The position numbers and the translations under genes are program-made. The notes beneath the pieces are model-generated. The model saw only the letters and a program-made list of their open reading frames with translations. It did no database searches and had not been told where the DNA came from. From positions 287-64,286 of the IMG/VR virus record IMGVR_UViG_3300030329_001359: a stretch of 64,000 bases of DNA; one strand, written 5' to 3'. Position 1 is the stretch's first letter, and every line of letters begins with the position of its first letter. Positions 14,684-30,374 of this stretch are shown one piece after another. This DNA comes from a virus.

Positions 14684-14887
14684 ATGAATCAACTTATTCA
14701 AATTTTCTTACCAACTGAATGGCGTGGTATTCCTAATGTTCAGCAACCATTTACACTTAACTTGGTTGAGAATGGCGACATGATTGATGTCTACTTTTGG
14801 AAACCATCTGTTGAAGAGAATGGTAAACATTTCTTAAGAGTTCCCAAGAAATCTAAGAAAGCTTTTATTAAGGCTTGCGAGGTGTAA
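14684..14887 (+). CDS. First early gene, hypothetical 67-residue protein
   Basis: The ATG at 14684 is chosen over an in-frame ATG at 14651 because AAAGAGG stands eight bases upstream. Beta-rich start (IQIFLPTEWRG, FTLNLVENGDMIDVYFW) and a basic end (RVPKKSKKAFIKACEV). Not recognised. As the first gene of the early block it is likely to be made soon after entry and could act on the host. Confidence 0.6.
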   Translation: MNQLIQIFLPTEWRGIPNVQQPFTLNLVENGDMIDVYFWKPSVEENGKHFLRVPKKSKKAFIKACEV

Positions 14888-14931
14888 ACCTCGTAGCTGA
14901 GCACGCATAAGAGCAAGTTATTAACAAACAA

Positions 14932-15010
14932 GTGAAGAAGTGAACATAATGTAAGGCATTTACTGATTGCAATCCGTAGATGTCAATACTATTATTAGTA
15001 GCTTCTTCAC
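14932..15010 (+). ncRNA. Structured intergenic element E1 (three-way junction)
   Basis: Closed by GTGAAGAAG/CTTCTTCAC (9 perfect pairs, plus T-G inside). Inside are two hairpins: GTAA-GGCAT-TTAC (14951-14963) and TACTA-TTAT-TAGTA (14987-15000). This makes a three-way junction of 79 nt in a 266-nt spacer. No tRNA T-loop or CCA. No coding sequence seen in it. Confidence 0.4.
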
Positions 15011-15064
15011 ATCACATGGGCAAACACATATATTTGTACAATACAAACAATAAAACTATCTATG

Positions 15065-15118
15065 CTATGGTTTCTCCTAGGACGAGATATAACCAAATTA
15101 GCGGGAGCTATACCATAG
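15065..15118 (+). ncRNA. Structured intergenic element E2
   Basis: Outer stem CTATGGT/ACCATAG (7 pairs) and inner stem CTCC/GGAG (15074-15077 with 15104-15107), 54 nt. It lies in the same spacer as E1, upstream of the 77-residue gene, and is followed by AGGGTAGATAAATAAGGG. Could be an RNA or DNA element. Confidence 0.35.
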
Positions 15119-15153
15119 GGTAGATAAATAAGGGAAATAGCAAGGAAAATAAC

Positions 15154-15387
15154 ATGAGTATTAAAAAAATAAGAGAAGATAAAAATACTATGACTTTTCT
15201 TGAAGATGGCAAAGAAACAACTTACAAAAAAGATTGGACAGATAAAGATGAAGAAGACTATAATGAACACGATAAGTTTGAAAAATCTGTTTCAGTTATA
15301 GTAGATGATTGGGATTCACTACCAAAATGGAAACAAAAATTATACAATAACCAAATGAATAATTACTACAAAGAAAAAAATAAATAG
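15154..15387 (+). CDS. Hypothetical acidic 77-residue protein
   Basis: Start ATG at 15154 with AAGGAAAATAAC upstream. Strongly charged, Asp/Glu/Lys-rich, no Cys and no membrane segment. A short beta start (MTFLEDGKETTYKKDW) is followed by a helical half. Not recognised; small charged early proteins often bind host proteins, but nothing here shows a target. Confidence 0.55.
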   Translation: MSIKKIREDKNTMTFLEDGKETTYKKDWTDKDEEDYNEHDKFEKSVSVIVDDWDSLPKWKQKLYNNQMNNYYKEKNK

Positions 15388-15397
15388 GGAGATAACA

Positions 15398-15541
15398 ATG
15401 GAAATACTACATCACATCAACGTTTATGCAACAGCATTATTCATAATGCAAATGCTAACAATATACATGATGTTCTCACTCTTCAGCTCAGATGGAAAGA
15501 AAGAAGGACACATGAAGAGCTATCTTAAAGGAGATAGATAA
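15398..15541 (+). CDS. Small membrane protein, 47 residues
   Basis: ATG at 15398 after GGGAGATAACA, stop TAA at 15539-15541. One hydrophobic stretch (VYATALFIMQMLTIYMMFSLF, residues 8-28) then a charged tail (SSDGKKEGHMKSYLKGDR). Predicted single-pass inner-membrane protein with a cytoplasmic tail. The ribosome site and absence of a competing frame support it. Confidence 0.5.
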   Translation: MEILHHINVYATALFIMQMLTIYMMFSLFSSDGKKEGHMKSYLKGDR

Positions 15542-15551
15542 CAACTAACAG

Positions 15552-15581
15552 CACAGGGGAATCTTAATTGATTCCCTTGTG
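15552..15581 (+). other. 12-bp hairpin E3
   Basis: CACAGGGGAATC/GATTCCCTTGTG, 12 pairs with one G-U, loop TTAATT. Fills a 67-nt spacer between two small early genes. Not followed by a T-run, so an RNase III-type site or mRNA stabiliser is more likely than a terminator. Confidence 0.5.
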
Positions 15582-15608
15582 TAATCACAATAGTGAAGGG
15601 AAATAAAA

Positions 15609-15794
15609 ATGAATAACAAAGAAATATTGAGCTTATATCCACAATATATTAATACACCTTTATCTGTAATCAGAGAAGGTGGCGAAACTATTATAGAATG
15701 GACAACCACTAAGGTAAAAAATAAAGAAGAAGAAAAAGATATTATAGAATCATCAATAGATTTTCTCATGAAAAATAATATAAAACTGTATTAA
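15609..15794 (+). CDS. Hypothetical 61-residue protein
   Basis: ATG at 15609 after GAAGGGAAATAAA. N-terminal beta part (YPQYINTPLSVIREGGETIIEWTTTKV) and Lys/Glu-rich helical end. Not recognised. Its start is supported by the ribosome site, and the next gene follows after a GGGGG-containing 18-nt spacer. Confidence 0.5.
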   Translation: MNNKEILSLYPQYINTPLSVIREGGETIIEWTTTKVKNKEEEKDIIESSIDFLMKNNIKLY

Positions 15795-15812
15795 AACAAT
15801 AGGGGGATAACA

Positions 15813-16067
15813 ATGATACAATTAACATTAGACTTGCAGATTGAACATTACACACCAATATGTAGTTGCGAAGGATGCTTCAGGGATTCTACACACACTA
15901 CATATCTAGGCAGAGAGTCATTCGACACTTGTGAATATCACTATCATGAGCTTATGATGATAGATGATTGGGATACGGAAAGAATAGATGCACAAATTAT
16001 GATGACACCACTAGCAAAAGCATTAGAATATCGCGAAGAGATGTTCCAATACAACAATAGACAATAG
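15813..16067 (+). CDS. Cys/His-rich small protein
   Basis: 84 residues. C18, C20 and C23 (CSCEGC), then CEYHYH at 40-45, form a plausible zinc site. The rest is acidic and helical. Start is preceded by AGGGGGATAACA. Could be a small regulator or host-takeover protein; no family recognised. Confidence 0.5.
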   Translation: MIQLTLDLQIEHYTPICSCEGCFRDSTHTTYLGRESFDTCEYHYHELMMIDDWDTERIDAQIMMTPLAKALEYREEMFQYNNRQ

Positions 16068-16102
16068 TAAACAACAAACAAACAAAAAGGAGATAGGACA
16101 AA

Positions 16103-16648
16103 ATGAACAGCCTATTAAAACACACACTTGCAGTATTTTCAATAGTTGGCTCAATGGTAGCCCTATTAAATCTACAGGCATGTCAAAATGAGCAACCGAT
16201 TGCTAAGGTTGAAGAAGTGGATACTGATACATACTCAGCAACAGAGAGTGAGCAGTATAAGGAACTATCAGAGTACCTTGACTCTGTATCAATTGCATAT
16301 GAAGTACACGCAAGCGTCGAAGACTTCAAAGACTCACTTGAAACACTAAGTGATGAAGAAGTTGAAGAACTATACTTAGATGTAGTATCAACAACAGAAG
16401 GGAATATTGAATATGCAGAAGTCATAAGGATTGAAGCAAGTACATTTGGCGAAGCATTTGCATCAGCAAGGTATCAACTCGGTCCAAATCAAGAGTTCAT
16501 ATGGGAAGCAAATGGTGTAACATACACTACTAACTTCGCTGAAGAAGAAAAAGAAGAAGGTAGCACATCTCACACACCAGACCATTATTGGACTGATGCT
16601 GAGATAAATAGTGGAACAGTCATAGATACCACACAAGCACCTTATTAA
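16103..16648 (+). CDS. Predicted lipoprotein
   Basis: 181 residues. Signal peptide of 26 residues ends in a lipobox LQAC with C27 as the lipidation site. The mature part is very acidic: helical 35-110, then TFGEAFASARYQLGPNQEFIWEANGVTYTT (about 118-147). This last module (F-x-x-A-x-x-x-G...F-x-W-x-G-x-x-Y-x-T) recalls a short domain of Bacteroidetes and phage proteins of unknown role. An early-expressed phage lipoprotein suggests superinfection exclusion or cell-surface change; this is inference. Start has GGAGATAGGACAAA upstream. Confidence 0.75.
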   Translation: MNSLLKHTLAVFSIVGSMVALLNLQACQNEQPIAKVEEVDTDTYSATESEQYKELSEYLDSVSIAYEVHASVEDFKDSLETLSDEEVEELYLDVVSTTEGNIEYAEVIRIEASTFGEAFASARYQLGPNQEFIWEANGVTYTTNFAEEEKEEGSTSHTPDHYWTDAEINSGTVIDTTQAPY

Positions 16649-16651
16649 ATA

Positions 16652-16721
16652 GGTATCTCCCTATACCATAATAGGTTGGTGAAAGCATTATTGTTAGGCA
16701 AATGTTAGTAGCCAACCTATT
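16652..16721 (+). ncRNA. Structured intergenic element E4
   Basis: Directly after the lipoprotein stop: a small hairpin GGTAT-ctccct-ATACC (16652-16667), then AATAGGTTGG/CCAACCTATT (16670-16679 with 16712-16721, 10 perfect pairs plus T-G) enclosing 32 nt, in which GCATT/AATGT can pair. Followed by TTTTAATTG, so a weak terminator is possible for the second stem. Confidence 0.4.
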
Positions 16722-16817
16722 TTAATTGCAGGATACAACTAATGAATAACATAGAAGCAACTCAATTAGTACATTCAATAGACATTTATATACAAAACAA
16801 AATAAAGGACAATAAAT

Positions 16818-16970
16818 ATGTCAACAATATTAACAATCATATCCATAGCAGTATTTTCACTAGCAATGGGACATATAGTAAGCAAAGAACAAAAACAATT
16901 AAGCGAAGAAAGCATATTCTTAAACAAACTTAGAGAAAAAAACTTAAAAAAACTTAGGGAAATGAAATAA
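16818..16970 (+). CDS. Small membrane protein, 50 residues
   Basis: ATG at 16818 after AAAGGACAATAAAT; stop overlaps the next ATG (TAATG at 16968-16972). Hydrophobic residues 4-22 (ILTIISIAVFSLAMGHIV) then a Lys/Glu-rich helix (KEQKQLSEES...LREKNLKKLREMK). This frame explains the DNA better than the overlapping 16742-16933 frame. Single-pass protein with coiled-coil tail; function unknown. Confidence 0.55.
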   Translation: MSTILTIISIAVFSLAMGHIVSKEQKQLSEESIFLNKLREKNLKKLREMK

Positions 16971-17230
16971 TGGACTTAACTCAATATTTAAACCAATTTA
17001 GTATATCAACAGAGATAAAAATGTGGATACAATCATCACTTGCTCTTGGAATAAAATTAAATAAATTACTTGAAATTGCAAAAAGCGACGACGCATCTAT
17101 TGACATAAGAGTTCAAGATACAATAGAATTAATTATGGCAACAAGTAGAATAAAGAGTCTTGAGTTTAGATACGGTTCTCAGAATTATAGAATAAAGGAT
17201 TGTATATTATATGATGATGGGAAGGATTAA
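16970..17230 (+). CDS. Hypothetical 86-residue protein
   Basis: Mainly helical with no Cys-rich or catalytic pattern (WIQSSLALGIKLNKLLEIAKSD, VQDTIELIMATSRIKSLEFR). Start coupled to the upstream membrane protein by TAATG. Not recognised. Confidence 0.5.
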   Translation: MDLTQYLNQFSISTEIKMWIQSSLALGIKLNKLLEIAKSDDASIDIRVQDTIELIMATSRIKSLEFRYGSQNYRIKDCILYDDGKD

Positions 17231-17235
17231 AAATT

Positions 17236-17367
17236 ATGAAAAGACGTAGAAGTAAATTTATTCATTGGTTTAATACAACTGATGAAGGACAAATATTCGC
17301 ATATTGGATAGCGTTTATGTTTGTATTAATGATAGCTGGAATAATATTAAAAATATTGGAGGCGTAA
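17236..17367 (+). CDS. Small membrane protein, 43 residues
   Basis: ATG at 17236, stop at 17365-17367. Basic start (MKRRRSKFIHW), then a hydrophobic segment (IFAYWIAFMFVLMIAGIILKIL, about residues 20-41). The positive N-terminus predicts N-in topology. The next start overlaps its stop. Confidence 0.5.
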   Translation: MKRRRSKFIHWFNTTDEGQIFAYWIAFMFVLMIAGIILKILEA

Positions 17368-17471
17368 TGAGTAAACTAAAGAAACATCCAACAAGAAAGT
17401 ATGAATCTCTTGAAGAATATATAAGAAGAACTGTTGGTGACTATAGAATTATAAAAAAAGTAGGTAAATAA
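17367..17471 (+). CDS. Basic mini-protein, 34 residues
   Basis: ATG overlaps the previous stop (TAATG) and its stop overlaps the next start (TAATG at 17469-17473); GGAGG lies just upstream. Sequence is Lys/Arg/Tyr-rich (SKLKKHPTRKYESLEEY, RIIKKVGK). Chained overlaps make it credible despite its size. Function unknown. Confidence 0.45.
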   Translation: MSKLKKHPTRKYESLEEYIRRTVGDYRIIKKVGK

Positions 17472-17719
17472 TGAGCAAGCAACAAATATTTGTAAAACAC
17501 AAAGATGAGATAATGCTTGAAATACTGAGATTGCACAGATTAAAATTTTGTGATGACGAACATAGACCTAAGATAGAAGCAGAAGCAGTAAATCATGGTA
17601 AAATACAAGGCTTAATGTGGGCTGTAGGATTATTTGATATTAAAAAGGATAAAGATATTGACCCGTTTGACCAATGGGATAATGAAGAAGAGAATAATAA
17701 TGTTTTTGAAGGAGAATGA
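17471..17719 (+). CDS. Hypothetical 82-residue protein
   Basis: Helical, with HKDEIMLEILRLHRLKFCDDEHRPKIEAEAVNHGKIQGLMWAVG and an acidic tail. The pattern of a helix, then H-G-x-I-Q-G-L, resembles small phage proteins of unknown role. Start coupled to the 34-residue gene. Confidence 0.5.
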   Translation: MSKQQIFVKHKDEIMLEILRLHRLKFCDDEHRPKIEAEAVNHGKIQGLMWAVGLFDIKKDKDIDPFDQWDNEEENNNVFEGE

Positions 17720-17722
17720 ATA

Positions 17723-17944
17723 ATGCCAATACATTTAGATGAAGCAATACTTAGGTCGAAGACTGGAACTCATATAATAAATGTGTTACTATCAGTAGAT
17801 GTATTGCTTAAATTATATAAGGCAGGTGATGTCCCTAGCCAAGATAGAATAGAAATACTTGATAAGAGAGTAAGAGAAATTGAGGCTAAAAGGATAAAAG
17901 CAGTAACTAAGAAAGATAGTTTTCATTATCTTAGAAAAAGTTAA
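17723..17944 (+). CDS. Hypothetical 73-residue protein
   Basis: Begins 4 nt after the previous stop, with AAGGAGAATGAATA upstream. Charged and helical (LSVDVLLKLYKAGDVPSQDRIEILDKRVREIEAKR). No recognised domain. It ends right where structured element E5 begins. Confidence 0.5.
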   Translation: MPIHLDEAILRSKTGTHIINVLLSVDVLLKLYKAGDVPSQDRIEILDKRVREIEAKRIKAVTKKDSFHYLRKS

Positions 17945-18019
17945 TATGTAGGCGAGTTATAATATATAATGGTTTGTTTCTACCCTATATCCACAACTAC
18001 AAAACGACTCGCCTATATA
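17945..18019 (+). ncRNA. Structured intergenic element E5
   Basis: Long closing stem from TATGTAGGCGAGT (17945-17957) with ACTCGCCTATATA (18007-18019): 13 pairs with one G-U. Inside, ATATA-at-GGT can pair with ACC-c-TATAT. First half of a 174-nt non-coding spacer whose second half is E6. Confidence 0.45.
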
Positions 18020-18024
18020 ATTTA

Positions 18025-18092
18025 AAAGCCTAGCGATTTATATCACAATAAGAACTCCGCAGTTTTTGATCACGATTCAATTGCTAGGCTTT
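18025..18092 (+). ncRNA. Structured intergenic element E6
   Basis: AAAGCCTAGCGATT (18025-18038) pairs with AATTGCTAGGCTTT (18079-18092): 14 pairs with one G-U. An inner hairpin AACT-CCGC-AGTT sits at the tip. It follows E5 after five bases. Next gene starts at 18119 with AAGGAGAGAG. Confidence 0.45.
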
Positions 18093-18118
18093 AACATTAA
18101 TAAGTATAAGGAGAGAGA

Positions 18119-18478
18119 ATGGTAAGATTAAAGAATCTCAAGAGCATTGTTGAACGTCAACTGAGAGATAAGCCAGAACTCAGAGATAGCGACAGCAAGT
18201 TAGTTGCTAGAATATGGTATAATCATATACAAAGCAAGAGTCCTATCCCTGTTGAGAATATGTCAGCAGTTGATTTACTTATAGCAGTAGGCAATGGTGA
18301 GCTAATAGGATGGTCATCTATAACAAGAGTACGAAGAAAGATACAGGAAATGAATCCAGATTTAAGAGGTAAGAAATATCAAAAAAGACAGGAATCTCGT
18401 AAAGTATATATTAAAGAGATAAAAGAGTTTGAACTATCAGAACTAAGAAAAAAAGTAAATGGAGAAAAGAAATGTTAG
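18119..18478 (+). CDS. Hypothetical phage protein with HTH-like C-terminal half
   Basis: 119 residues, basic. The layout (KSIVERQLRDKPELRDSDSKLVARIWYN, a short P-x-P linker, then SSITRVRRKIQEMNPDLRGKKYQKRQ) matches a small phage family I recall, in which a predicted DNA-binding helix ends in an RRKIQE segment. DNA binding is therefore likely but not shown. Start has AAGGAGAGAGA upstream. Confidence 0.55.
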   Translation: MVRLKNLKSIVERQLRDKPELRDSDSKLVARIWYNHIQSKSPIPVENMSAVDLLIAVGNGELIGWSSITRVRRKIQEMNPDLRGKKYQKRQESRKVYIKEIKEFELSELRKKVNGEKKC

Positions 18479-18573
18479 AACTTTGGTGTTTTATTATAGC
18501 TTCATTGTATCTCTTTTTTGGAATACTTGTATTCAATCTTTGGAAAGATAGAGACATTTGGAGGAATAAATGA
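18472..18573 (+). CDS. Small membrane protein, 33 residues
   Basis: ATG at 18472 overlaps the end of the previous gene; GGAGAAAAGA precedes it. Nearly all of residues 3-25 is hydrophobic (LWCFIIASLYLFFGILVFNLW), tail KDRDIWRNK. Its stop overlaps the next ATG (ATGA). Function unknown. Confidence 0.5.
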   Translation: MLELWCFIIASLYLFFGILVFNLWKDRDIWRNK

Positions 18574-18713
18574 AAGAAATTAAAAGCTTACCAGAAGATA
18601 TACTTGAAGACATTATAATATATGTACATGAACATACTGAAAATAATGAAGAATTTTATAAAGCATTTTATGAAGAGATAATGAATCACTTTAACAAGGG
18701 TTTATTGCTATGA
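18570..18713 (+). CDS. Acidic helical mini-protein, 47 residues
   Basis: ATG at 18570 in an ATGA overlap with the previous stop; TGGAGGAATAA gives a good ribosome site. Acidic and helical (LPEDILEDIIIYVHEHTENNEEFYKAFYEEIMNHF). Not recognised. Confidence 0.5.
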   Translation: MKEIKSLPEDILEDIIIYVHEHTENNEEFYKAFYEEIMNHFNKGLLL

Positions 18714-18761
18714 ATAAATACTTATTTTTATTAAATTTACAGCCCTTATAGGAGAGAAAAT

Positions 18762-19598
18762 ATGCAAATTGAGAGAATGTATAGTGAATTTCTTGACTCT
18801 AAAAATGAAGACTATAAAAAGAAATATAAAGGATTAGAGAAATCATTTTCAGCATCATCAGCAGGACATTGTTATAAGAAACATATGTTTAAGGTAACTG
18901 AAGCACCACAAAAAGAAATAGAAGCAAGAAGTCAAAGAATACTAAGACTTGGAACTTTAGTACATCAAGACTTTGAAGATGCTGTTAAACACTACATAAA
19001 TACTGGAACAGATTTATATGCTACATCAACAAGTGGCGAAGGAAAATCCACAGTATACTATACTAAGGTTTCTGGTGAGCAAGATAAAAGATTCTATGTT
19101 GAGCATAGGATAGAGATACCAGAATATAATGTGGTAGGTCATCTTGATTTTGCAGTTGCTGATAAAAATAATAAAGATGTATATGTTTATGATTACAAGA
19201 CTGCAGCCTCATATAAATGGAGTCTAAAGTTTGGAAGAAAGTATAAAGATAATAATCCAAATTTTAATTATGAGATGCAACTATCTACATATCTATTAGG
19301 ATTGCAAAAGCACTTTGAAGAAATAGATTTCCAAGCAGAGTCTGTACAGATGTCAATCATATGGTACAATAAAGATACGAGTAGGATGAGAGAAGAGATA
19401 ATACAGTTAGACTATATTGATATGGCAAAATCTTATTGGGAAGAATTAAATGAATGGAGAAAAGAAGTAGAGAAACAAGACCCTGAACTAAAAAATCATG
19501 AGTCTGTAAATCTAACAATACCAAGATTTAGGGAAGTTGGAGTACCATTCCAAGATTGGGAATGTAAGTATTGTCCATATGACCACATATGTAAATAA
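18762..19598 (+). CDS. RecB/Cas4-like PD-(D/E)XK exonuclease with Fe-S cluster motif
   Basis: 278 residues. H68 (LVHQDFE), D129 (GHLDFAV), D144 and K146 (YDYKTA) and a QLSTYLLGL motif fit the RecB-type nuclease core. C37 (GHC) with C268, C271 and C277 (CKYCPYDHIC) gives the four Cys of a Cas4/AddB-type 4Fe-4S cluster. Likely a 5'-3' exonuclease working with the Rad52-like annealase and SSB-like protein encoded just downstream. SD TAGGAGAGAA. Confidence 0.85.
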   Translation: MQIERMYSEFLDSKNEDYKKKYKGLEKSFSASSAGHCYKKHMFKVTEAPQKEIEARSQRILRLGTLVHQDFEDAVKHYINTGTDLYATSTSGEGKSTVYYTKVSGEQDKRFYVEHRIEIPEYNVVGHLDFAVADKNNKDVYVYDYKTAASYKWSLKFGRKYKDNNPNFNYEMQLSTYLLGLQKHFEEIDFQAESVQMSIIWYNKDTSRMREEIIQLDYIDMAKSYWEELNEWRKEVEKQDPELKNHESVNLTIPRFREVGVPFQDWECKYCPYDHICK

Positions 19599-19603
19599 CA
19601 AAA

Positions 19604-19701
19604 TTGGATAGTTTCTCGGGCTTCCAATAGAGAACAGTAGATTGCAATGTGTGCATATGTACAACTAAGGCTGGGGCTGAAAAAATAGGCTCACTATCCA
19701 A
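19604..19701 (+). ncRNA. Structured intergenic element E7
   Basis: Closing stem TTGGATAGT/ACTATCCAA (9 pairs; can extend past a bulge with AAA/TTT). Inside, TTCTC/GAGAA (19613-19617 with 19630-19634) stacks on it and TGTGC-ATAT-GTACA (19650-19663) forms a second hairpin: a three-way junction of 98 nt. The 3' flank is AATTTTTTAAA, so terminator activity after this element is possible. Confidence 0.42.
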
Positions 19702-19734
19702 ATTTTTTAAAAAAATAACAAAAAGGAGAGAGAA

Positions 19735-20346
19735 ATGGGATACGATGTATATGGATTAAATCCAAAAATAAACACAGATGTTCCTAGTATAATAACTGAC
19801 TTTCAAAAAAAAGAATGGTCAAATACTACAGAAGAAGAACAAAAAGAATACTTTGCAATGCAAGATGTTTATCGTGAAGAAAACCCTGGAGAATATTTTA
19901 GAGCTAACGTATGGTACTGGAGACCAATATGGAATTTTGTATGCGCAGCTTGTGATGATTTCTTATCTGATGCAGATATAGAAGCAGGATATAGTAATAG
20001 TGGAGATAGGATAAGTAAGACTAAATCTAAGAGAATAGCGTCGAGATTAAGAAGTTTAGACAAGCAAGGTATCATACAAAACTGGGAAGATGAAATGATG
20101 GCTCATTACAACAAGGCAAAGAAACATAATAAAAAAGTCGAAGAAGAATTGGAAGAACTTCGAAAAGAAATGAAAGAAAAACATGGTAAAGATATTGTAC
20201 CAGCTGATTATCCTAAAGAAGACTATGCAAAATGGAATGAAATATATTCTAAAAGAGATTGGTCTGGTAGTTATCCCCCCAGTAGAGAGCATATAGTTAG
20301 ATTTTCTAGGTTCTGTGAAGAATCTGGAGGATTTGAAATTTGCTAA
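19735..20346 (+). CDS. Conserved phage hypothetical protein (GYDVYGLNP type)
   Basis: 203 residues. The start MGYDVYGLNP and GEYFRANVWYWRPIWNFV are typical of a phage family I recognise by pattern but whose role is unknown. Residues about 85-145 are a charged coiled coil; the C-terminus has an SREHIVRFSRFCEESGGF block. It sits between the exonuclease and annealase genes, so a recombination or replication role is possible. SD AAGGAGAGAGAA. Confidence 0.6.
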   Translation: MGYDVYGLNPKINTDVPSIITDFQKKEWSNTTEEEQKEYFAMQDVYREENPGEYFRANVWYWRPIWNFVCAACDDFLSDADIEAGYSNSGDRISKTKSKRIASRLRSLDKQGIIQNWEDEMMAHYNKAKKHNKKVEEELEELRKEMKEKHGKDIVPADYPKEDYAKWNEIYSKRDWSGSYPPSREHIVRFSRFCEESGGFEIC

Positions 20347-20789
20347 TTAAACACGAAGAAAAAGGATTATTTTGGCGAACAATGGAGGGTTATATACTTC
20401 ATACAAGCCAAATGGAAACAAGTCATCTGTTTAATTCTGTCAAGATGATATATAATCATATGGCACAACTAATAGGATTCCCAACATTTTGGTTTAATAA
20501 GGAATATGAAAAATGGAACAAGGTATGGATAAAAGAACCAGAACAAACACTCGAGTATCTTAAAATAATGATTGAAGAACTAGAGACTCGAACGGATTGG
20601 GATGAAGATCAAAAAAGTACCTATATGAAGATAAGACTAACTCTAAGTGGTGGATTTCATAAGATTCTTTTTGATGAACTAGAAAAAAGAGGATTTGACA
20701 GAGACTTAATACAAATACAAGAACCTATAAAACTATTAATGGAGGCAAAAGAAAAGTATGAGCGAAAACAACTCACTAACGGTGATTGA
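20340..20789 (+). CDS. Hypothetical protein, TTG start
   Basis: 149 residues from TTG at 20340, which has GGAGG nine bases upstream and overlaps the preceding stop; the ATG at 20382 is the alternative. Aromatic-rich N-terminal half (LIGFPTFWFNKEYEKWNKVWI) and helical C-terminal half. The end overlaps the annealase start by 32 nt. Not recognised. Confidence 0.5.
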   Translation: MLIKHEEKGLFWRTMEGYILHTSQMETSHLFNSVKMIYNHMAQLIGFPTFWFNKEYEKWNKVWIKEPEQTLEYLKIMIEELETRTDWDEDQKSTYMKIRLTLSGGFHKILFDELEKRGFDRDLIQIQEPIKLLMEAKEKYERKQLTNGD

Positions 20790-21372
20790 TAAGAAAACAG
20801 TCACTAATGCTCAACAGATATTAAAAGGTGTTACAGAACAACACACTAAAGTATCACAGATTGAGACACCAAAAGCATATGTCTATAAAAAGCAAGGATT
20901 TGACTATGTTAAACTTGAGTATATGAGAGCAATAGCCGATAAGAATTTCCCAGGCTGGAGTTGGACTATAATCAACACAGAAGTATTAGGCTCTGAGGCT
21001 TATGTAGTTCATGGCAGATTAAAATGGTTTGACAATGGAATATGGAGAGAAGGTGATATGGTTGCTGCTCACAGAATACAAAAGAAACAAGGTTCTAGTG
21101 TATTTGTAGACATAGGTAATGATATTAAATCAGCAAACACAGACACAATGAAAAAAGCATTTAACACTTATTTGAATATTGCAGATGATGTTTATAGAAA
21201 GCAATACGAAGAAGCTGAATTGACAGATGAACAAAAAGATAAGTTGTTAAAATTGGCTGAAAAAACAAATAGATATGACGATATACAGAATGGAATAGAA
21301 GATGGAAACATACATGGATTAAACTACAAAGCATCACTAGCAAAACTAGAAAGACTAGCAGGAGGAAAATAA
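20758..21372 (+). CDS. Rad52-like single-strand annealing protein
   Basis: 204 residues. The core GWSWTIINTEVLGSEAYVVHGRLKWFDNG...REG...AHR followed by GNDIKSANTDTMKKAFNTYLNI matches the Rad52/Sak beta-beta-beta-alpha pattern, including the closing helix equivalent to K-x-A-x-T-D-A-x-K-R-A. The C-terminal 40 residues are helical. It pairs complementary single strands; the partner exonuclease and SSB-like genes are neighbours. Family assignment is from pattern only. Confidence 0.7.
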   Translation: MSENNSLTVIDKKTVTNAQQILKGVTEQHTKVSQIETPKAYVYKKQGFDYVKLEYMRAIADKNFPGWSWTIINTEVLGSEAYVVHGRLKWFDNGIWREGDMVAAHRIQKKQGSSVFVDIGNDIKSANTDTMKKAFNTYLNIADDVYRKQYEEAELTDEQKDKLLKLAEKTNRYDDIQNGIEDGNIHGLNYKASLAKLERLAGGK

Positions 21373-21373
21373 C

Positions 21374-23863: not shown

Positions 23864-24077
23864 TGAATGGGGAAGACCTCCTTCATTAGCAGACGTTCCA
23901 TTAACTTTTATGACTAGAGCTGAAACATTTAAAAAAAGAAATATGGACAAAGAAGAAATAGATAGAATATGGAATGTAATGAAAGAATATGGTTCAGATA
24001 AAACAGATTTTAATAAAGACCTACTTTTTGATAGAAAAAAAGGTACTTATTATTACAAAAAGGAGAATAAAAAATGA
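23823..24077 (+). CDS. Hypothetical 84-residue protein
   Basis: Contains DEWGRPPSLADVPLTFMTRAETFKKRNMDKEEIDRIW; the C-terminus is Lys-rich. The start overlaps the previous gene strongly, so the real start may be a later ATG (for example at 23851, before VDEWG). No recognised function. Confidence 0.45.
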   Translation: MKKKQWLNQKVMVDEWGRPPSLADVPLTFMTRAETFKKRNMDKEEIDRIWNVMKEYGSDKTDFNKDLLFDRKKGTYYYKKENKK

Positions 24078-24265
24078 AATATTGGCTAGAATCATTAGCA
24101 GAAAATGGATTTGATGTCTTTACAGTTGTTTACATAGCAATTTTAGGAATCTTATACCATTATTTAATGAGATGGTTTATTGATTTAAGACTTAAAAAAC
24201 TTGAAGATAAGCTCGAAATACAAAATGAATTACTACATCATATAATTGATGAAGTAGAAGAATGA
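24074..24265 (+). CDS. Small membrane protein with coiled coil, 63 residues
   Basis: Start overlaps the previous stop (ATGA) after AAAAGGAGAATAAAA. One membrane segment (VFTVVYIAILGILYHYLMRWFI, about 15-36) followed by a heptad helix (LRLKKLEDKLEIQNELLHHIIDEVEE). Its stop overlaps the next ATG. Function unknown. Confidence 0.55.
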   Translation: MKYWLESLAENGFDVFTVVYIAILGILYHYLMRWFIDLRLKKLEDKLEIQNELLHHIIDEVEE

Positions 24266-24687
24266 AATGTCCTGCTTGTGGATTTAATGGTGGCAAAAAC
24301 TATAATTACAGTAAAGAAATAATAAGGATTCTTGCTACTAAACCAGAGAGAACAATAAAATACATAAAAAAGTTAGTATCTGAGGTGCAACAAAATGTTC
24401 CATCAGAATATAACTCCAAGTCCTATTTCTATTTTTTGAAAGGAATAGATAAGGCAGATAACAGAATAGTTGAAAGAGCAATCGAGCATTATCTTAGAAG
24501 TGGATACCATCTTCAAGGTAAAGGCTTTGCTTACATTAAGGCTATGATCAATAACGAAAAACTCAATTCTAGAAAGAAATTACAGAATGAGTACAAACGT
24601 CTTGGAAGAACACCCAAGATAGTAAAAATAAAAGGAAATGAAAATGAAAAAGAAGAGAGGAAGACCAAGAAAAAACATACCAAATAA
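24262..24687 (+). CDS. Zinc-motif protein near the helicase, possible helicase loader or initiator
   Basis: 141 residues. Starts MKCPACGFNGG, a half zinc ribbon. The central part (IIRILATKPERTIKYIKKLV, VERAIEHYLRSGYHLQGKGFAYIKAMINN) is helical and reminds me of DnaD-like or loader domains; the C-terminus is highly basic. It lies two genes upstream of the DnaB-type helicase. The loader role is a suggestion only. Confidence 0.45.
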   Translation: MKCPACGFNGGKNYNYSKEIIRILATKPERTIKYIKKLVSEVQQNVPSEYNSKSYFYFLKGIDKADNRIVERAIEHYLRSGYHLQGKGFAYIKAMINNEKLNSRKKLQNEYKRLGRTPKIVKIKGNENEKEERKTKKKHTK

Positions 24688-24766
24688 CTTTAGAGGCAAA
24701 GAAGATAGGTTCTGGTCTAAAATAGTTAAAGGTTTGAAGAAATTTTTAGAATCACCATTTAAATAG
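24638..24766 (+). CDS. AT-hook mini-protein (early)
   Basis: 42 residues from ATG at 24638 (AAAGGA upstream; alternative ATG 24644), in another frame over the end of the previous gene. Residues 6-12 read KRGRPRK, the AT-hook core that binds the minor groove of AT-rich DNA; then a helical tail (DRFWSKIVKGLKKFLESPF). It matches in style the late mini-protein at 51797-51889. Confidence 0.5.
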   Translation: MKMKKKRGRPRKNIPNNFRGKEDRFWSKIVKGLKKFLESPFK

Positions 24767-24774
24767 GAGGATAA

Positions 24775-25584
24775 ATGAAAAGTAATTTTGAACAAACATT
24801 ATTTCCAGTAAAAGAAATACCAGCAGTTGGTAGACACTTGGATAAAATTGATAACAATGAATTGTATCCAACAATACTAGATAATACTGGATATAAATTC
24901 ATAGTAAGAGAAGACACTAATGAGGTTCTTAGTTGCATGACGAATGAATATAAGTTGATTAAGAATGAAGAGATAATAGATAAAGCAATGCCAATTATAA
25001 AAGATAGAGGTGGTGTATTGGTAGAAGAAAATCTATTTGGAGATGGAGCTAGAGCAAGTTGGCAATGGAAATTCCCAGAGGTAGAAGTGGATGTTGGAGA
25101 AGGAGACTTAATGAATCCTACTATCAATATAAGTAACAGTTATGATGGTTCTTCTGAAGCCAGCGCAATAGCTGGTGCTTTTAGATTGATATGTTCTAAT
25201 GGATTAATAATAGGTGTCACATTTGGAAAAGGAAGCACTAGACATAGTATTTGGTCAAAGAAAAATAAGTTTGATGAAATAATAAGTGGCGTTATTAATA
25301 GTGTTGAGAATATATTCAAGACAGACTTTCGTGACTTAATTGATACGAAGATAAATAAGAACGATATAGTTAAATTGATTAAACTATTTCCAGAAACACA
25401 CACAGAATCATTATTCCAATACATACTTACACACGAACCAAAGACATATTGGGAATTGTTGAATGCTGCTACTTGGGTTGCTACTCATCAGATGAAGAGA
25501 AACGTAGAAGCAACACATAAGTTTGAATCAAAGTTGTATTCAACAGTACATGAACTAGCTAAAAAAGAAATAGCTAGAGCTTAA
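24775..25584 (+). CDS. DUF932 family protein
   Basis: 269 residues. The NSYDGSSEASAIAGAFRLICSNGLI block (about 121-145) is the hallmark of DUF932 phage/plasmid proteins, with the usual N-terminal FIVREDT...LSCMTNEYKLIKNEE part. The molecular role of the family is unknown; members commonly sit beside replication genes, as here, directly before the helicase. SD AGGAGGATAA. Confidence 0.8.
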   Translation: MKSNFEQTLFPVKEIPAVGRHLDKIDNNELYPTILDNTGYKFIVREDTNEVLSCMTNEYKLIKNEEIIDKAMPIIKDRGGVLVEENLFGDGARASWQWKFPEVEVDVGEGDLMNPTINISNSYDGSSEASAIAGAFRLICSNGLIIGVTFGKGSTRHSIWSKKNKFDEIISGVINSVENIFKTDFRDLIDTKINKNDIVKLIKLFPETHTESLFQYILTHEPKTYWELLNAATWVATHQMKRNVEATHKFESKLYSTVHELAKKEIARA

Positions 25585-25593
25585 AAACAATAA

Positions 25594-25683
25594 TATTAAG
25601 GGCTAAAGTGGTAATTATCTAAAAAAGATGGCATCTGTTCTTTTTTAGTGGTTGGCTAGGCGGTACCTGCCTTGCCCTTAATA
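25594..25683 (+). ncRNA. Structured intergenic element E11 (three-way junction before dnaB)
   Basis: Closing stem TATTAAGGGC/GCCCTTAATA (10 pairs), hairpin CTAAAAAAGA/TCTTTTTTAG (10 perfect pairs, 25619-25648) and hairpin AGGCGG-TAC-CTGCCT (25658-25672, one G-U). All three arms are strong, giving the clearest three-way junction in the window. 90 nt, ends 15 bases before the helicase start codon. No tRNA T-loop. Confidence 0.55.
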
Positions 25684-25697
25684 AATAAGGGAGTTAT

Positions 25698-27050
25698 ATG
25701 GAAAATAAAATAAAAGAAATGCCTTCAAGTCAAGAGGCTGAGAACTCTGTATTAGGCTGTATACTGTTAGATGGTGAACAATCTTTTGATAAAGTAATCC
25801 CGTGGATAAGAAATGATAACGCATTTTATACAACAGATAATAAGAAGATATGGAAGGCAATTAAGATATTAAGAAGAAAAAAAGAACCAATAGACCTAGT
25901 AACTGTATCAAATACATTAAGAGAAGATGGAGAAGACAATATAAGTTATTATCTTACTGGTCTAACTGATGTTATAGCTACTACATCCAATATAGAAAGT
26001 CATGCAAAAATAGTTTGGGAAAAATATGTACAAAGAGAAGTAAGAACTGCATCCTACAAAATGAATAAAATCAGTTTCGATAAATACGAAAAGACAATGC
26101 CATTAATAAATCAACAATTAAAGTGGCTAGAAGAACTAAGAGACCTACAACCAGATAGAGTAAATAACTTAGATGCAATGATAGAAGATGCTGTAGAGTA
26201 TATAAAAAGTGGAGAGAATGTAATAAAATTTGGTATGTATGCCCTTGATAAACCAGCAGGAGGTATGACTAGAAAAGAAGTGACTGTATTAGGAGGAAGA
26301 CCAGGTCATGGCAAGACAACTCTTATGATTAATGTGTTAAAGTCTTTAATAGAGCAAGGCTATAAGGTTATGTTATTTAATCGAGAAATGAGCAACACAG
26401 AAATGTTAAGAAAACTTATAGTCTTGGAAAGTAAAAGCCTTTTATATGGTAATATAAGACGAGGAGAGATAGATGGTTTAGAAGATGAAATAGATAAAGC
26501 TGAACAAACCATAAAAGAAAAATACAAAAATCTAATAATGTATGATGACATAAGAACTCTTCAAGATGGAATAGCAGAAATATCTAAACATAAACCAGAC
26601 GTAGTAATAGATGATTATATTCAATTGATAACAATGAATGACAATAAAGATAGAAGATTTCAAATAGAAACAATTATGCAAGAATATAAATGGGTAGCAA
26701 AGAAAGAGAATTGTTCAGCATTATTAATAAGCCAATTAAACAGAGAAATTGAAAGAAGAATAGACCCTTATCCAAGAATGAGTGACTATGCAGAAAGTGG
26801 AGTAATAGAACAAACAGTTGAAAATGCTTTATTTGTTTTCTATGGATACAATTTTGACCATGAAAATTACGATATGTATGAGAGTGAAATAATATCTTGT
26901 AAGACTAGGTATGGAATGGTAGGAGGATATAAAGTAGGATTTGCAGGTAATAGATGTAGCTTTTATCCAACAAGAGAACAAGCAGTAAAAGACTTAAAGA
27001 ATACAAATCAAGATGAACAACCAAAAACAGAATGGCTCGAAGGAGACTGA
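25698..27050 (+). CDS. dnaB: DnaB-type replicative helicase
   Basis: 450 residues. N-terminal domain begins PSSQEAENSVLGCILLDG, as in DnaB. RecA-like domain: Walker A GGRPGHGKTT (199-208), Walker B DVVIDDYIQL (301-310), then LISQLNREIERR with the expected Gln and Arg and a SDYAESGVIEQ block. It unwinds DNA at the fork. No primase domain. It is the only helicase in the window and no polymerase accompanies it, so it must load host replication enzymes. Confidence 0.93.
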   Translation: MENKIKEMPSSQEAENSVLGCILLDGEQSFDKVIPWIRNDNAFYTTDNKKIWKAIKILRRKKEPIDLVTVSNTLREDGEDNISYYLTGLTDVIATTSNIESHAKIVWEKYVQREVRTASYKMNKISFDKYEKTMPLINQQLKWLEELRDLQPDRVNNLDAMIEDAVEYIKSGENVIKFGMYALDKPAGGMTRKEVTVLGGRPGHGKTTLMINVLKSLIEQGYKVMLFNREMSNTEMLRKLIVLESKSLLYGNIRRGEIDGLEDEIDKAEQTIKEKYKNLIMYDDIRTLQDGIAEISKHKPDVVIDDYIQLITMNDNKDRRFQIETIMQEYKWVAKKENCSALLISQLNREIERRIDPYPRMSDYAESGVIEQTVENALFVFYGYNFDHENYDMYESEIISCKTRYGMVGGYKVGFAGNRCSFYPTREQAVKDLKNTNQDEQPKTEWLEGD

Positions 27051-27279
27051 AGAGAAGTATAAACTAATATCCAAGTACGCAATAGCTCAATATGAATTTG
27101 AAAAGATAATCGGATTTAAAAGAGCTATAAGATTGACAGTAGATACAAAAAAACAAATAATAGGGCATGGGTATCTGAGTGATGCACCGAAATCCAAATT
27201 GCTTAACCTCTTAGCAAAGCTTAGATACCTATATGCCCAGGTGGTAAAAAATAATCAACGATTTCCCACAAAGGAGTAA
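27013..27279 (+). CDS. Hypothetical 88-residue protein
   Basis: Overlaps the helicase end by 38 nt; the start is uncertain because the ribosome site before 27013 is weak. Core is KYAIAQYEFEKIIGFKRAIRLTVDTKKQIIGHG then a helical, basic tail. Not recognised. Confidence 0.45.
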   Translation: MNNQKQNGSKETEEKYKLISKYAIAQYEFEKIIGFKRAIRLTVDTKKQIIGHGYLSDAPKSKLLNLLAKLRYLYAQVVKNNQRFPTKE

Positions 27280-27281
27280 CG

Positions 27282-27746
27282 ATGAATGGAATCATAGCAA
27301 TTGACCCTGGGGCAAGCGGTGGGTTAGCTTTTGTAACAGACGACTATTGCAGGGCATCTAAGTGTCCAAAGACAACAAGAGAAATGTTTGCAATCTATAA
27401 TCATTGTATGTCATCCTGTTACATAGATGGATACAATCCTGTAGTTGCAATAGAAAAAGTATGGGCGTTCCCAACAGATGCAAGAAGTAATGCATTTAAT
27501 TTTGGAGTGAACTATGGAAAATGGTTGGGAATAATATCCTCATCTAACATCAAACCAATACTTGTAACACCAAAGAAATGGCAAGACTCATATCAACCAC
27601 TATCAAAAGAAAAGAAAAAAAGAAAAAAAGAATTGAAGGAAATAGCTGAAGAAATGTTTCCCGATATTAGAGTAACTCTTTATAACTGCGATGCTCTATT
27701 AATAGGAGCATGGGCAAAAACAATGGGAGAAGTAAATGAAAGCTGA
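27282..27746 (+). CDS. RuvC-like Holliday junction resolvase
   Basis: 154 residues. RNase H-like acidic residues are in place: D8 (IIAIDPGASGG), E58 (VVAIEKVWAF) and D137 (NCDALLIGAW). The SNAFNFGVNYGKWLGII helix and KPILVTPKKWQ strand match phage RuvC-type resolvases. Role: resolving recombination or packaging junctions made by the annealase pathway. Start coupled to the upstream gene (AAAGGAGTAACG). Confidence 0.82.
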   Translation: MNGIIAIDPGASGGLAFVTDDYCRASKCPKTTREMFAIYNHCMSSCYIDGYNPVVAIEKVWAFPTDARSNAFNFGVNYGKWLGIISSSNIKPILVTPKKWQDSYQPLSKEKKKRKKELKEIAEEMFPDIRVTLYNCDALLIGAWAKTMGEVNES

Positions 27747-27972
27747 AAAAATATTTAACTACAGCAAACATCCATTTGAGTTTCAATCGTTTGCACTTAC
27801 AATGGAGACTGGAGTTAAAGCAATGCCAAGAAAAACAGTATGTCTTTACATTGGAATAAGACCAATCATATTAGCAGTAAGCACAGCAACAGACTATAGT
27901 ATAACAATTGAATTGAAAGTATGGAAAACATCATTGGCTTTTAATTTAAAACTATGGTCTAATCATGAATGA
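27736..27972 (+). CDS. Hypothetical 78-residue protein
   Basis: Overlaps the resolvase by 11 nt. Predicted mixed fold with a hydrophobic central part (VCLYIGIRPIILAVSTATDYSITIELKVW). Might be membrane-associated. Not recognised. Confidence 0.5.
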   Translation: MKAEKIFNYSKHPFEFQSFALTMETGVKAMPRKTVCLYIGIRPIILAVSTATDYSITIELKVWKTSLAFNLKLWSNHE

Positions 27973-28075
27973 TAAGGAACTGATAAGAGAAATAATAAAA
28001 AAACTTGAAGATATTTCAACAGCTTTAAGTTCTTTACTTTGGATGATAAAAGACATAAACAACAGAAAAAAATAA
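27965..28075 (+). CDS. Helical mini-protein, 36 residues
   Basis: ATG at 27965 overlaps the previous gene's end; stop TAA at 28073-28075. Sequence is one amphipathic helix (KELIREIIKKLEDISTALSSLLWMIKDI). Small and without a strong ribosome site, so moderate doubt. Confidence 0.4.
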   Translation: MNDKELIREIIKKLEDISTALSSLLWMIKDINNRKK

Positions 28076-28088
28076 AAGGAGGTATAAC

Positions 28089-28175
28089 ATGGAATTATAC
28101 ATTTTTGGATTGTTGTTTTTAACTATAATTACTTTAGGATATATTATTTTCTACGAAGAAGATAAAAGGAGCTAA
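28089..28175 (+). CDS. Membrane mini-protein, 28 residues
   Basis: ATG at 28089 after AAAAGGAGGTATAAC, a near-perfect ribosome site; stop TAA at 28173-28175. Residues 3-20 are hydrophobic (LYIFGLLFLTIITLGYIIF) with tail YEEDKRS. The strength of the ribosome site makes translation likely despite the size. Confidence 0.5.
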   Translation: MELYIFGLLFLTIITLGYIIFYEEDKRS

Positions 28176-28177
28176 GT

Positions 28178-28993
28178 ATGGATACAGATTGTCCAGTTGT
28201 CATACCTTATTATGGTGGCAAGTTCACTATGAGTAAACAGTTGCTACAGTATATTCCTGAGCATCTTAGATACTTCGAACCTTTCTTCGGGGGCGGCTCG
28301 ATGTTTTTTAGAAAAAAGAAAGCAAATTGGAATATATTAAATGATATTGATAATGACCTAGTAAATCTATACTTATGTATATTAAATAAATTCGATGAAC
28401 TATCAGAAAAGATATATTGGTATCCAAGAAGTAGAAAATTACATGATGACTTTAGAGCAGACATTAAAGCAACACAAGAAATAGACATACCAGATACAGC
28501 CAGAGCATCTAAATATTATTACATAGTAAGAAATGCATTTAATAATAAACCATTAAATAGTTTTTCAAAGGATACATACTGGAGTACTCAGATGGTAGAG
28601 GAACTCAAGCAATCAAAAGAAAAATTAAATGGTTCAACGATAGAAAACTTAGACTTTGCAGAATTAATAGACAGATATGTAATGAGGGAAGGAGACTTTG
28701 TATACCTTGACCCTCCATATGTTGTAGCAGATAACAGAGATTACTATAGAAATAGGTTTGATGAAAGTATGCATCTTAAACTAAAAGAGACTATAGACAA
28801 TATATCTTTAAATAATGGTAAATTCATGTTAAGTTATGACGATAGAGTAGAGCTTAGAGAGATGTATAAAGACTATAATATACTTACAATAAAAACAAAG
28901 TATTCTGGGGCGAACCCAGACATCAGAGGTGAAGAAAAAACAGAACTTCTAATACTTAACTACGAAATTAATAAACAGGGGGTATTATTTTGA
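28178..28993 (+). CDS. Dam-type adenine-N6 DNA methyltransferase (D12 class)
   Basis: 271 residues. Motif I FEPFFGGGS (33-41), N-terminal PYYGGK (10-15), IV motif YLDPPY (176-181) and a final RGEEKTELLI block match D12-class Dam methylases. Likely methylates GATC-like sites in phage DNA to avoid host cleavage or mark replication; target not readable. AAAGGAGCTAAGT precedes the ATG. The 3' end overlaps the next gene by 4 nt. Confidence 0.88.
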   Translation: MDTDCPVVIPYYGGKFTMSKQLLQYIPEHLRYFEPFFGGGSMFFRKKKANWNILNDIDNDLVNLYLCILNKFDELSEKIYWYPRSRKLHDDFRADIKATQEIDIPDTARASKYYYIVRNAFNNKPLNSFSKDTYWSTQMVEELKQSKEKLNGSTIENLDFAELIDRYVMREGDFVYLDPPYVVADNRDYYRNRFDESMHLKLKETIDNISLNNGKFMLSYDDRVELREMYKDYNILTIKTKYSGANPDIRGEEKTELLILNYEINKQGVLF

Positions 28994-30057
28994 GCTTAGG
29001 AGATGATATTAGAAAAGATGATGATGGCAATGTAATCGGCTGTCCTCATTGCGGAGCTAGGTCTGTACATAAAAGTGGTTTTGTATACAGAGCCAATTCA
29101 AAAAAACAACAATGGCTGTGTACTGCTTGCGGAAGAAAGACAGTTAAGCCAACAATAATAGAAAAAAGTCCATTTAAAGTAGAAGATATAGACCCTGACC
29201 ACATACCAATAGAAGAATTAATAACACATAGAAAAAAACAGTACAAACAAAAGAAGATAGCAAAAGAAAGTAAGAAATTAGTAAGGATAGATATTAATGT
29301 TGATGGACCGATAGGCATTGCTCACTTTGGAGACCCTCATGTTGATGATGATGGAACTGATTTATCTCAAATTCTACATTTCATGAACGTCTTAAACAAT
29401 ACAGATGGAATGTTTGCTGGGAATCTAGGAGACATACAAAACAATTGGATAGGTAGACTGTCTTATTTGTATGGTCAACAGTCTACATCAGCAAAGGAAT
29501 CTTGGAGATTGACTGAGTATTTTGTAAACAAAATGAATTGGTTATATCTCGTAGCAGGTAATCACGATGTATGGAGTGGTGATGGCGACCCTTTAGATTT
29601 TATTATGAGAGACCACAAAGGACTCTATGAAAAATGGGGAGCTAGAATGAGATTGGTATTTCCAAATGGAAAAGAAATAACAGTCAATGCAAGACACACA
29701 TTCAAAGGTAATAGTATATGGAATACTGCTCATGGTGTAGCTAGGGCTGCTCAAACGGGATGGGCTGACCATATTCTTACTTGTGGTCACACTCATGTTT
29801 CGGGCTATCAAGTATTGAAAAACCCTGCTAGTGGATTAATAAGTCATGCATTGCAAGTTGCTTCATTTAAAATAATGGACAGCTATGCAGATAAACTAGG
29901 ACTAGACGATAAAAATATATTTAATTGTCCAGTCACAATCATAGACCCACAGTATGATGATGACGATAATAGATTGATTACTACTATTTTTAATCCAATT
30001 GAAGGTGCTAACTTTCTGTCTTGGAAAAGGGCAGAATGGAAAGCAAAACATAAATAA
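28990..30057 (+). CDS. Metallophosphoesterase with N-terminal zinc ribbon
   Basis: 355 residues; TTG start at 28990 following GGGGGTATTAT. Zinc ribbon C18, C21, C44, C47 (transposase/IS1 InsA-like pattern), a basic linker, then a calcineurin-like domain: D115-x-H117 (HFGDPHVD), GNLGD (D148), AGNHD (N191, H192) and CGHTHVSGY (around 260). All metal-binding motifs are present. Likely a nuclease or phosphatase directed to nucleic acid by the ribbon; substrate unknown. Confidence 0.8.
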   Translation: MSLGDDIRKDDDGNVIGCPHCGARSVHKSGFVYRANSKKQQWLCTACGRKTVKPTIIEKSPFKVEDIDPDHIPIEELITHRKKQYKQKKIAKESKKLVRIDINVDGPIGIAHFGDPHVDDDGTDLSQILHFMNVLNNTDGMFAGNLGDIQNNWIGRLSYLYGQQSTSAKESWRLTEYFVNKMNWLYLVAGNHDVWSGDGDPLDFIMRDHKGLYEKWGARMRLVFPNGKEITVNARHTFKGNSIWNTAHGVARAAQTGWADHILTCGHTHVSGYQVLKNPASGLISHALQVASFKIMDSYADKLGLDDKNIFNCPVTIIDPQYDDDDNRLITTIFNPIEGANFLSWKRAEWKAKHK

Positions 30058-30063
30058 CAACTA

Positions 30064-30125
30064 GTCAGGTTGGGGGCGTATATCCTCCCTATCTCTCTCT
30101 TCGCATCCCCGCGTCCTCACCTGAC
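30064..30125 (+). other. Stem element E12
   Basis: Outer stem GTCAGGT/ACCTGAC (7 pairs) and inner GGGG-GCG pairing CGC-at-CCCC (7 pairs); loop rich in pyrimidines (TATATCCTCCCTATCTCTCTCT). 62 nt between the phosphoesterase and the last early gene. GC-rich for this genome. No T-run follows. Confidence 0.45.
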
Positions 30126-30143
30126 ATATCTATAAGGTAAACA

Positions 30144-30374
30144 ATGAAAGAATTAAAAGAACGTATTAAATGGTTAGAGCATGGTCTTCAAACAATAGCT
30201 TCAACAACCACAGATGAGTCATCAAAAGAAAGAGCTATAGCATTTTTAGATGGAGAGCCTACAACAGCAGACGAATTTAATGAAGATTGTATGATTACTT
30301 ATGTAAATGAGGGAGATGATATAGAATATAAATACAAAGAAGTAGGTAGAAGAATTACATTTGATACAATATAA
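30144..30374 (+). CDS. Hypothetical acidic 76-residue protein, last early gene
   Basis: Helical N-terminus (MKELKERIKWLEHGLQTIA) and beta-like acidic C-terminus (DCMITYVNEGDDIEYKYKEVGRRITF). Stop codon at 30372-30374 is directly abutted by the stop codon of the opposing late gene at 30375-30377, with no terminator in between. Confidence 0.55.
   Translation: MKELKERIKWLEHGLQTIASTTTDESSKERAIAFLDGEPTTADEFNEDCMITYVNEGDDIEYKYKEVGRRITFDTI

Follow-up and report, generated by a model that had tools for sequence, protein, structure and literature searches.

Structured RNA elements of several families in the early intergenic spacers of an uncultured marine phage and its relatives

In the early RNA of phage T7, the RNase III sites are hairpins that separate early genes within a single long transcript. 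Single small RNAs of phages are known as well. The DicF small RNA, which belongs to the dicBF operon of the Qin prophage, is released from its transcript by host RNases (PMC10448788), and C4-type phage RNAs, among them the C4 antisense RNA listed by Weinberg 2010, are complementary to gene leaders (PMC7567579). The inter-inverted-repeat (IIR) transcript of PLE and the abundant non-coding RNAs (ncRNAs) of ICP1 are described as ncRNA of a phage-related genome that is bounded by inverted repeats and has antisense matches to leaders (PMC7567579), and the structured motif STAXI is often found near SSB genes (PMC2864571). Here, we analysed a 64,000-nucleotide stretch of viral DNA (hereafter the window), which corresponds to positions 287-64286 of the 111,116-base IMG/VR virus record IMGVR_UViG_3300030329_001359. 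The spacers between its plus-strand early genes, at 14.7-30.4 kb, contain long inverted repeats, here named elements E1 to E12 (Table 1).

The comparison with the described systems reveals partial similarities only. As in the case of DicF, structured RNA lies between co-directional genes, presumably within one transcription unit. DicF, however, is a single RNA in a prophage operon, whereas the early spacers described here are nearly all occupied by RNAs from many unrelated families, which would have to be processed from the transcript. The RNase III sites of T7, unlike the elements described here, are not known to have conserved unique cores with changing gene neighbours. The C4 antisense RNA of P1/P7-like phages and the related RNAs of N15, P4 and phiR73 are likewise small structured phage RNAs, but the elements have no Rfam match, and no complementarity to phage leaders was found for the loops termed B and C below. 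Furthermore, the C4 covariance model (RF01695) matched neither the window nor 14 relatives. While there is one IIR transcript per PLE, the uncultured phage clade studied here has several covarying families. GOLLD and ROOL, which are structured phage RNAs often located near tRNAs, comprise several hundred nucleotides and are contained in Rfam, whereas the elements comprise about 30-140 nt and have no match; neither model matched the window. STAXI consists of tandem pseudoknot repeats, its likeness to the elements lies in the vicinity of SSB, and its Rfam model matched neither the window nor the relatives scanned. In general, the Rfam search of the window gave no match at the gathering threshold and nothing credible at E-values up to 5 over 14600-30400. 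Among the 14 relatives, which included carriers of all five families described below, it returned only one GOLLD RNA (L006 926-1330, above the Rfam gathering score) and two tRNAs. No tRNA or tmRNA was detected in the window with ARAGORN or Rfam. The literature searched, in which subscription journals were only slightly covered, contained no description of these families.

Relatives were collected from IMG/VR by searches with DnaB and SSB, which yielded about 110 loci, and further ones with the metallophosphatase; the analysis drew on about 190 related viral loci. These are partial contigs of at most about 21 kb per locus. Gene prediction relied on a home-made caller. The metallophosphatase proved unsuitable for collecting syntenic spacers, as its gene is widely exchanged among unrelated contexts. 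The second phage contained in the record (end of the window and L118-L121) was used as an independent comparison.

Inverted repeats begin at every coordinate that had been proposed from the sequence alone, from 14932 to 30064, and every non-coding gap of more than about 60 nt between the called genes at 14.7-30.4 kb contains a long-stem element. The apparent exceptions, 18479-18569 and 27973-28177, are small open reading frames (ORFs; 18472-18570 as well as 27965-28075 and 28089-28175) and not gaps. Dinucleotide shuffles, 200 per gap, failed to reproduce the stems in most gaps (stem p in Table 1). The folding-energy z was -6.4, -5.2, -4.0, -3.1, -2.9 and -2.5 in six of the eight element-bearing gaps and weak in 16649-16817 (-1.3) and 19599-19734 (-0.8). 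Over 94 plus-strand spacers from the window and its relatives, the median energy z was -2.1, and the stem p was 0.05 or lower in 51%. The elements had been described as a property of the early block. They were confirmed there, and the minus-strand late block also contains two strongly folded spacers, 3988-4074 (z -5.1) and 63704-63795 (z -8.5), so that the phenomenon extends beyond the early genes.

It is well supported that the elements are structured RNAs and neither chance folds nor DNA palindromes. In 271 non-redundant spacers, we counted single mismatches in helices of at least 10 Watson-Crick pairs that contained exactly one mismatch, without favouring any mismatch type. This revealed 21 G-T, 1 A-C and 3 other mismatches, compared to 0 G-T and 1.3 A-C in shuffles. 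A G-T mismatch can be tolerated only when it is the coding strand that folds, and folds as RNA; its excess over A-C hence indicates RNA folding. An initial count of 165 G-U against 5 A-C was set aside, because stem finding had allowed G-U and the count was hence biased. Moreover, the elements share the orientation of their upstream and downstream neighbours (49 of 49 and 47 of 49 for family BC, 32 and 33 of 35 for A, 13 of 14 on both sides for H). Structures at the level of DNA, such as cruciforms or single-strand hairpins serving as origins, packaging or recombination sites or hairpin promoters, would be in line with long inverted repeats close to replication genes. Nevertheless, the strong asymmetry of G-T over A-C on the coding strand and the near-universal orientation with the flanking genes leave them with hardly any probability. 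Hairpin promoters, one of four explanations offered by the sequence-only reading, are disfavoured by the same strand-specific signal (21 G-T versus 1 A-C).

There are at least five recurring families (A, BC, D, H and K), none of which has an Rfam match. Of the four explanations offered, regulatory RNAs or a novel small-RNA family fit best, with the correction that several distinct families are present instead of one. In these families, conserved cores are enclosed by closing stems whose sequence changes freely. Short words were enriched in spacers: ACTCCGCA occurred in 12 (0.2 expected) and GGTTGGC in 22 (2.0 expected). When elements were chosen by loop motif alone, the enclosing stems reached a median score, which permits G-U, of 25-29.5 compared to 15 in the null for A, B, C and H; the stems of D were not significant in this test (median 18.0 versus 16.5, n=5).

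The helices covary in the relatives, as determined with sets of 10-26 sequences. Neither of the two outcomes named by the sequence-only reading as refuting it, equally frequent stems in shuffles and lack of covariation in relatives, was therefore observed. BC consists of a closing stem, a hairpin with the loop CCACAACUACA and a hairpin with the loop CUCCGCA. The proposed general architecture of a closing stem and two inner hairpins thus applies to this family and does not hold as a rule, since E3, E4a and E9 are plain hairpins. As the inner helices of BC escaped detection with MAFFT and RNAalifold alone, a structure-based covariance model was used instead. With the alignment fitted to this model, so that pair counts lean towards it, 95.5% of cells were paired compared to 34-51% in slid controls, and 20 of 24 pairs had changed on both sides (0 of 500 shuffles). 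Of 90 BC pattern matches in IMG/VR, about 60 are not enclosed by a strong closing stem and seem to be chance matches in coding sequence. A subfamily of A combines a closing stem with a GAUA hairpin adjoining GGUUGGC; 97.1% of its cells were paired and 9 of 14 pairs had changed on both sides. D, found in 18 IMG/VR stretches with a 30-base pattern, is composed of CATATCTCCTGCGAC, a variable hairpin and GCGTATACAGTTAAGATTAAATG. The search for K (GCTGACCGAAGTATGA ... ATAGTAGGAG) yielded 16 stretches, including at least one chance match in coding sequence. For both, the variable loop was removed ahead of pair counting. Two covarying helices surround the invariant core of D (81.7% paired; 0 of 500 shuffles on the covariation score), while the closing stem and an inner helix covary in K (95.8% of cells paired, 14 of 16 pairs changed on both sides). 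H carries a pyrimidine loop around CUCUCUC within closing stems such as GAGGGCGG/CCGCCCTC. In six H-like spacers (Table 1), the loop CTCTCTCGGC can pair either within a GAGGGTGG/CACCCTC element or with the upstream GCCGAGAG. These folds are mutually exclusive and possibly represent a switch.

Judged by its sequence, the window carries a member of A (E11, 25594) and both halves of BC (E5, 17945, and E6, 18025). The assignment of E5 and E6 is based on motif and stem, because the BC covariance model R1 reaches neither of them. The two elements are adjacent and have one BC signature each, while relatives usually combine both signatures in one RNA. E12 (30064), which has a counterpart at L003 14260, probably belongs to H.

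The comparison of loci shows that gain, loss and relocation of these RNAs affect entire cassettes and take place preferentially in the slot 3' of SSB. The motifs CCACAACTAC, ACTCCGCA, TGGTTGGCTA and CTATCTCTCTC each occur once in the 64 kb. Within the regions examined, the families present at a locus are almost always represented by a single copy, located beside different genes in different phages. The homologue of E11 in the second phage of the record is 79% identical and lies 3' of SSB instead of 5' of dnaB, with homology ending at the element. In the close relative L188, E9 is kept and E8 and E10 are missing as whole units; partly repeated flanks were found beside E8. The junction 3' of SSB comprises at least 60 nt in 72 of 74 genomes (median 174), and its folding z was below -2 in 51 of 73. 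Among 3,213 further same-strand junctions (median 0 nt), only 17% reach this length. The sole tRNAs in about 95 loci scanned, for Tyr and Asn (L122 7054-7137 and L143 6271-6343), are both located in this slot, 5 nt ahead of an A element and of an element that carries CTCCGCA.

With moderate confidence, we interpret the elements as a repertoire of phage small-RNA genes, whose products would be cut from early polycistronic messages and act in trans. Each product would be an RNA of about 30-140 nt, with ends zipped by the closing stem and an interior exposing the conserved core. This design of closing stem and core is shown by covariation in four families, and overall by strand asymmetry and conserved motifs. 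Intrinsic terminators were not in excess (7 sites compared to 5.2 in shuffles, with none of the listed plus-strand sites overlapping an element), nor was there a clear excess of promoters, sigma-70 promoter clusters having been rejected. The RNAs are consequently most simply regarded as parts of long early transcripts, inside which they would be transcribed between co-directional early genes and from which host RNases may release them by cutting beside the closing stem. Generic RNase signals, also proposed from the sequence alone, poorly explain loop motifs that occur once per genome, although processing is probably the route of release. Once freed, the RNAs may act in trans. Ribosome-binding sites could be the pairing partners of some of them, for example of H through its CUAUCUCUCUC loop, while others such as D and K with their long invariant internal loops might more likely bind protein or the ribosome. 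Single copies, changing neighbours, gain and loss of units and conserved exposed cores together favour trans-acting RNAs over junction-specific signals in cis.

Such cis-acting elements would be structured 5' leaders or processing sites, comparable to the RNase III sites of T7 early RNA, and would determine how stable each early message is and how well its following gene is translated. They would fit the observation that frequently only 10-30 nt separate the final element of a spacer from the next start codon. They would also fit the nearly spaceless state of most other junctions in these phages, and could also explain why H (12 of 14) and A (14 of 35) prefer the slot 3' of SSB. As one family adjoins unrelated genes, the conserved cores occur once per genome and not at each junction, and the elements do not include the ribosome-binding site itself, we consider a role in cis less probable, yet the most probable of the alternatives. 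It is improbable that the cassettes are kept mainly as mobile or selfish units resembling miniature elements, without a dedicated phage function. Presence or absence as whole units, changes of position and the flanks of E8 could be read in this way; however, there is about one copy per family and genome, and divergent phages have strongly conserved cores and helices, which indicates selection on function. Elements resembling HK022 put, which cause antitermination or pausing of RNA polymerase in cis, would likewise appear as structured RNA in early operons without terminator excess. The number of unrelated families, their occurrence also towards the ends of operons and ahead of the final early gene, and the lack of downstream terminators to overcome render this explanation highly improbable.

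Several points weigh against a trans-acting repertoire, among them the slot preference of H and A mentioned above. Copy number was judged on partial contigs of at most about 21 kb per locus. In the window, the elements assigned to the named families are E5, E6, E11 and, probably, E12, whereas E1-E4 and E7-E10 have no assignment. An anti-Shine-Dalgarno role of the B and C loops on phage targets was rejected, as their reverse complements are not located near phage starts, and the enrichment of CTCC in spacers is modest (117 versus 74, about 1.6-fold). In an antisense search of the elements against all leaders of the window, only the pair of E9 and the dnaB leader was clearly above the null, and inspection of L003 by eye found no corresponding complementarity. 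In this pair, E9 (22582-22618) and the 35 nt before 25698, at the end of E11, could form about 15 bp including G-U (score 32; 95th percentile of the null 25). The H loop fits GGAGAGA-type sites only because such sites are the phage's own Shine-Dalgarno sequence. An action of the elements against ribosome-binding sites is thus weakly supported. The search for targets covered phage sequences.

Table 1 Features of the early block of the window and H-like spacers in relatives. Stem p is derived from 200 dinucleotide shuffles per gap; z is the folding-energy z of the gap.
Feature	Positions	Strand	Gap (stem p; z)	Description
E1	14932-15010	+	14888-15153 (0.065; -4.0)	10-bp closing stem, ~59-nt structured interior; overlaps weakly called small ORFs 14967-15053 and 14980-15123
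E2	15057-15126	+	14888-15153 (0.065; -4.0)	closing stem 7+7 bp with one mismatch; CUCC inside
E3	15551-15582	+	15542-15608 (0.005; -6.4)	plain 13-bp hairpin, loop 6 nt, without T run
E4a	16652-16667	+	16649-16817 (0.010; -1.3)	weak hairpin of just 5 bp, loop CTCCCT
E4b	16670-16721	+	16649-16817 (0.010; -1.3)	closing stem 11 bp
E5	17945-18019	+	17945-18118 (0.005)	14-bp closing stem; first BC signature CCACAACTAC at 17991-18000
E6	18025-18092	+	17945-18118 (0.005)	14-bp closing stem; second BC signature ACTCCGCA at 18054-18061, hairpin loop TCCGCA
E7	19604-19701	+	19599-19734 (0.065; -0.8)	9-bp closing stem, 80-nt interior; weakest of the set
SSB-like gene	21906-22502	+		phrog_378; conserved RNA slot 3'
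E8	22516-22575	+	22503-22763 (0.005)	9-bp closing stem; in slot 3' of SSB gene
E9	22582-22618	+	22503-22763 (0.005)	plain 16-bp hairpin
E10	22624-22737	+	22503-22763 (0.005)	8-bp closing stem, ~98-nt interior; whole cassette ~22619-22742
E11	25594-25683	+	25585-25697 (0.040)	family A RNA; 10-bp perfect stem; TGGTTGGCTA at 25649-25658; 5' of dnaB start
DnaB-like replicative helicase	25698-27050	+		query for collecting relatives
E12	30064-30125	+	30058-30143 (0.139)	probable family H; closing stem 7+8 bp interrupted by one bulge (best perfect stem 9 bp); pyrimidine loop CTATCTCTCTC
H-like spacer with two folds, L054	2802-2947			
H-like spacer with two folds, L057	3494-3639			
H-like spacer with two folds, L069	3476-3616			
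H-like spacer with two folds, L071	1446-1584			
H-like spacer with two folds, L284	4720-4843			
H-like spacer with two folds, L090	3204-3351			

Besides SSB and DnaB, the early genes on the plus strand encode a Cas4-like exonuclease, a Holliday junction resolvase, a DNA methyltransferase and a DNA repair exonuclease. The record as a whole (1-111116) consists of a pair of related phage genomes, each about 55 kb long, in head-to-tail order, with 28-89% protein identity at offsets of mostly 55-61 kb, which is probably an assembly join; the final ~8 kb of the window are part of the second phage. Searches by DNA, DnaB, metallophosphatase and terminase revealed no close isolate relative. A related DnaB was found on just two short contigs of metagenome-assembled genomes (Roseobacter and Flavobacteriales), which is too weak for naming a host.

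Further recurrent sequences were observed in the spacers. The minus-strand late spacers 1891-1955 and 60419-60489, one in each phage, both contain TTGTATAAGGAG..TCTCGCCTCGCAAGACAA, a hairpin with a conserved interior. The first early spacer contains the palindrome TTGTACAATACAA / TTGTATAATACAA (window 15034-15046; L003 825-1121), with similar sequences in other relatives; it looks like an operator over a -10 box. Additional recurrent elements, TAGGAGTAGC...GCTACTCCTA and GGCGGTGATGGATTAGCCAGTAGACTCTAGAGTTTATAAGCCGCC, were found in L014 (7186), L017 (7534), L020 (7164 and 7403) and L037 (7110).

A large clade with interchangeable structured RNA families, none of them in Rfam, in nearly every early spacer was not described in the papers searched. 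It may tentatively be proposed that nearly all non-coding sequence in the early region of this clade is devoted to undescribed structured RNA families, at least five in number and exchangeable, which would be traded as cassettes between fixed slots, chiefly behind SSB and alongside tRNAs, and serve an RNA-based programme of host takeover. Within such a set, D, in which two covarying helices flank ~35 invariant nucleotides, could represent a new class of functional RNA, for instance a protein-binding RNA or a ribozyme. The families supported by covariation provide a list of RNAs to seek in marine metatranscriptomes, and their distribution hints at how phages accumulate and trade RNA genes. If the RNAs do act in trans, they would represent an unexplored level, and a sizeable one, at which phages control translation of the host or their own.

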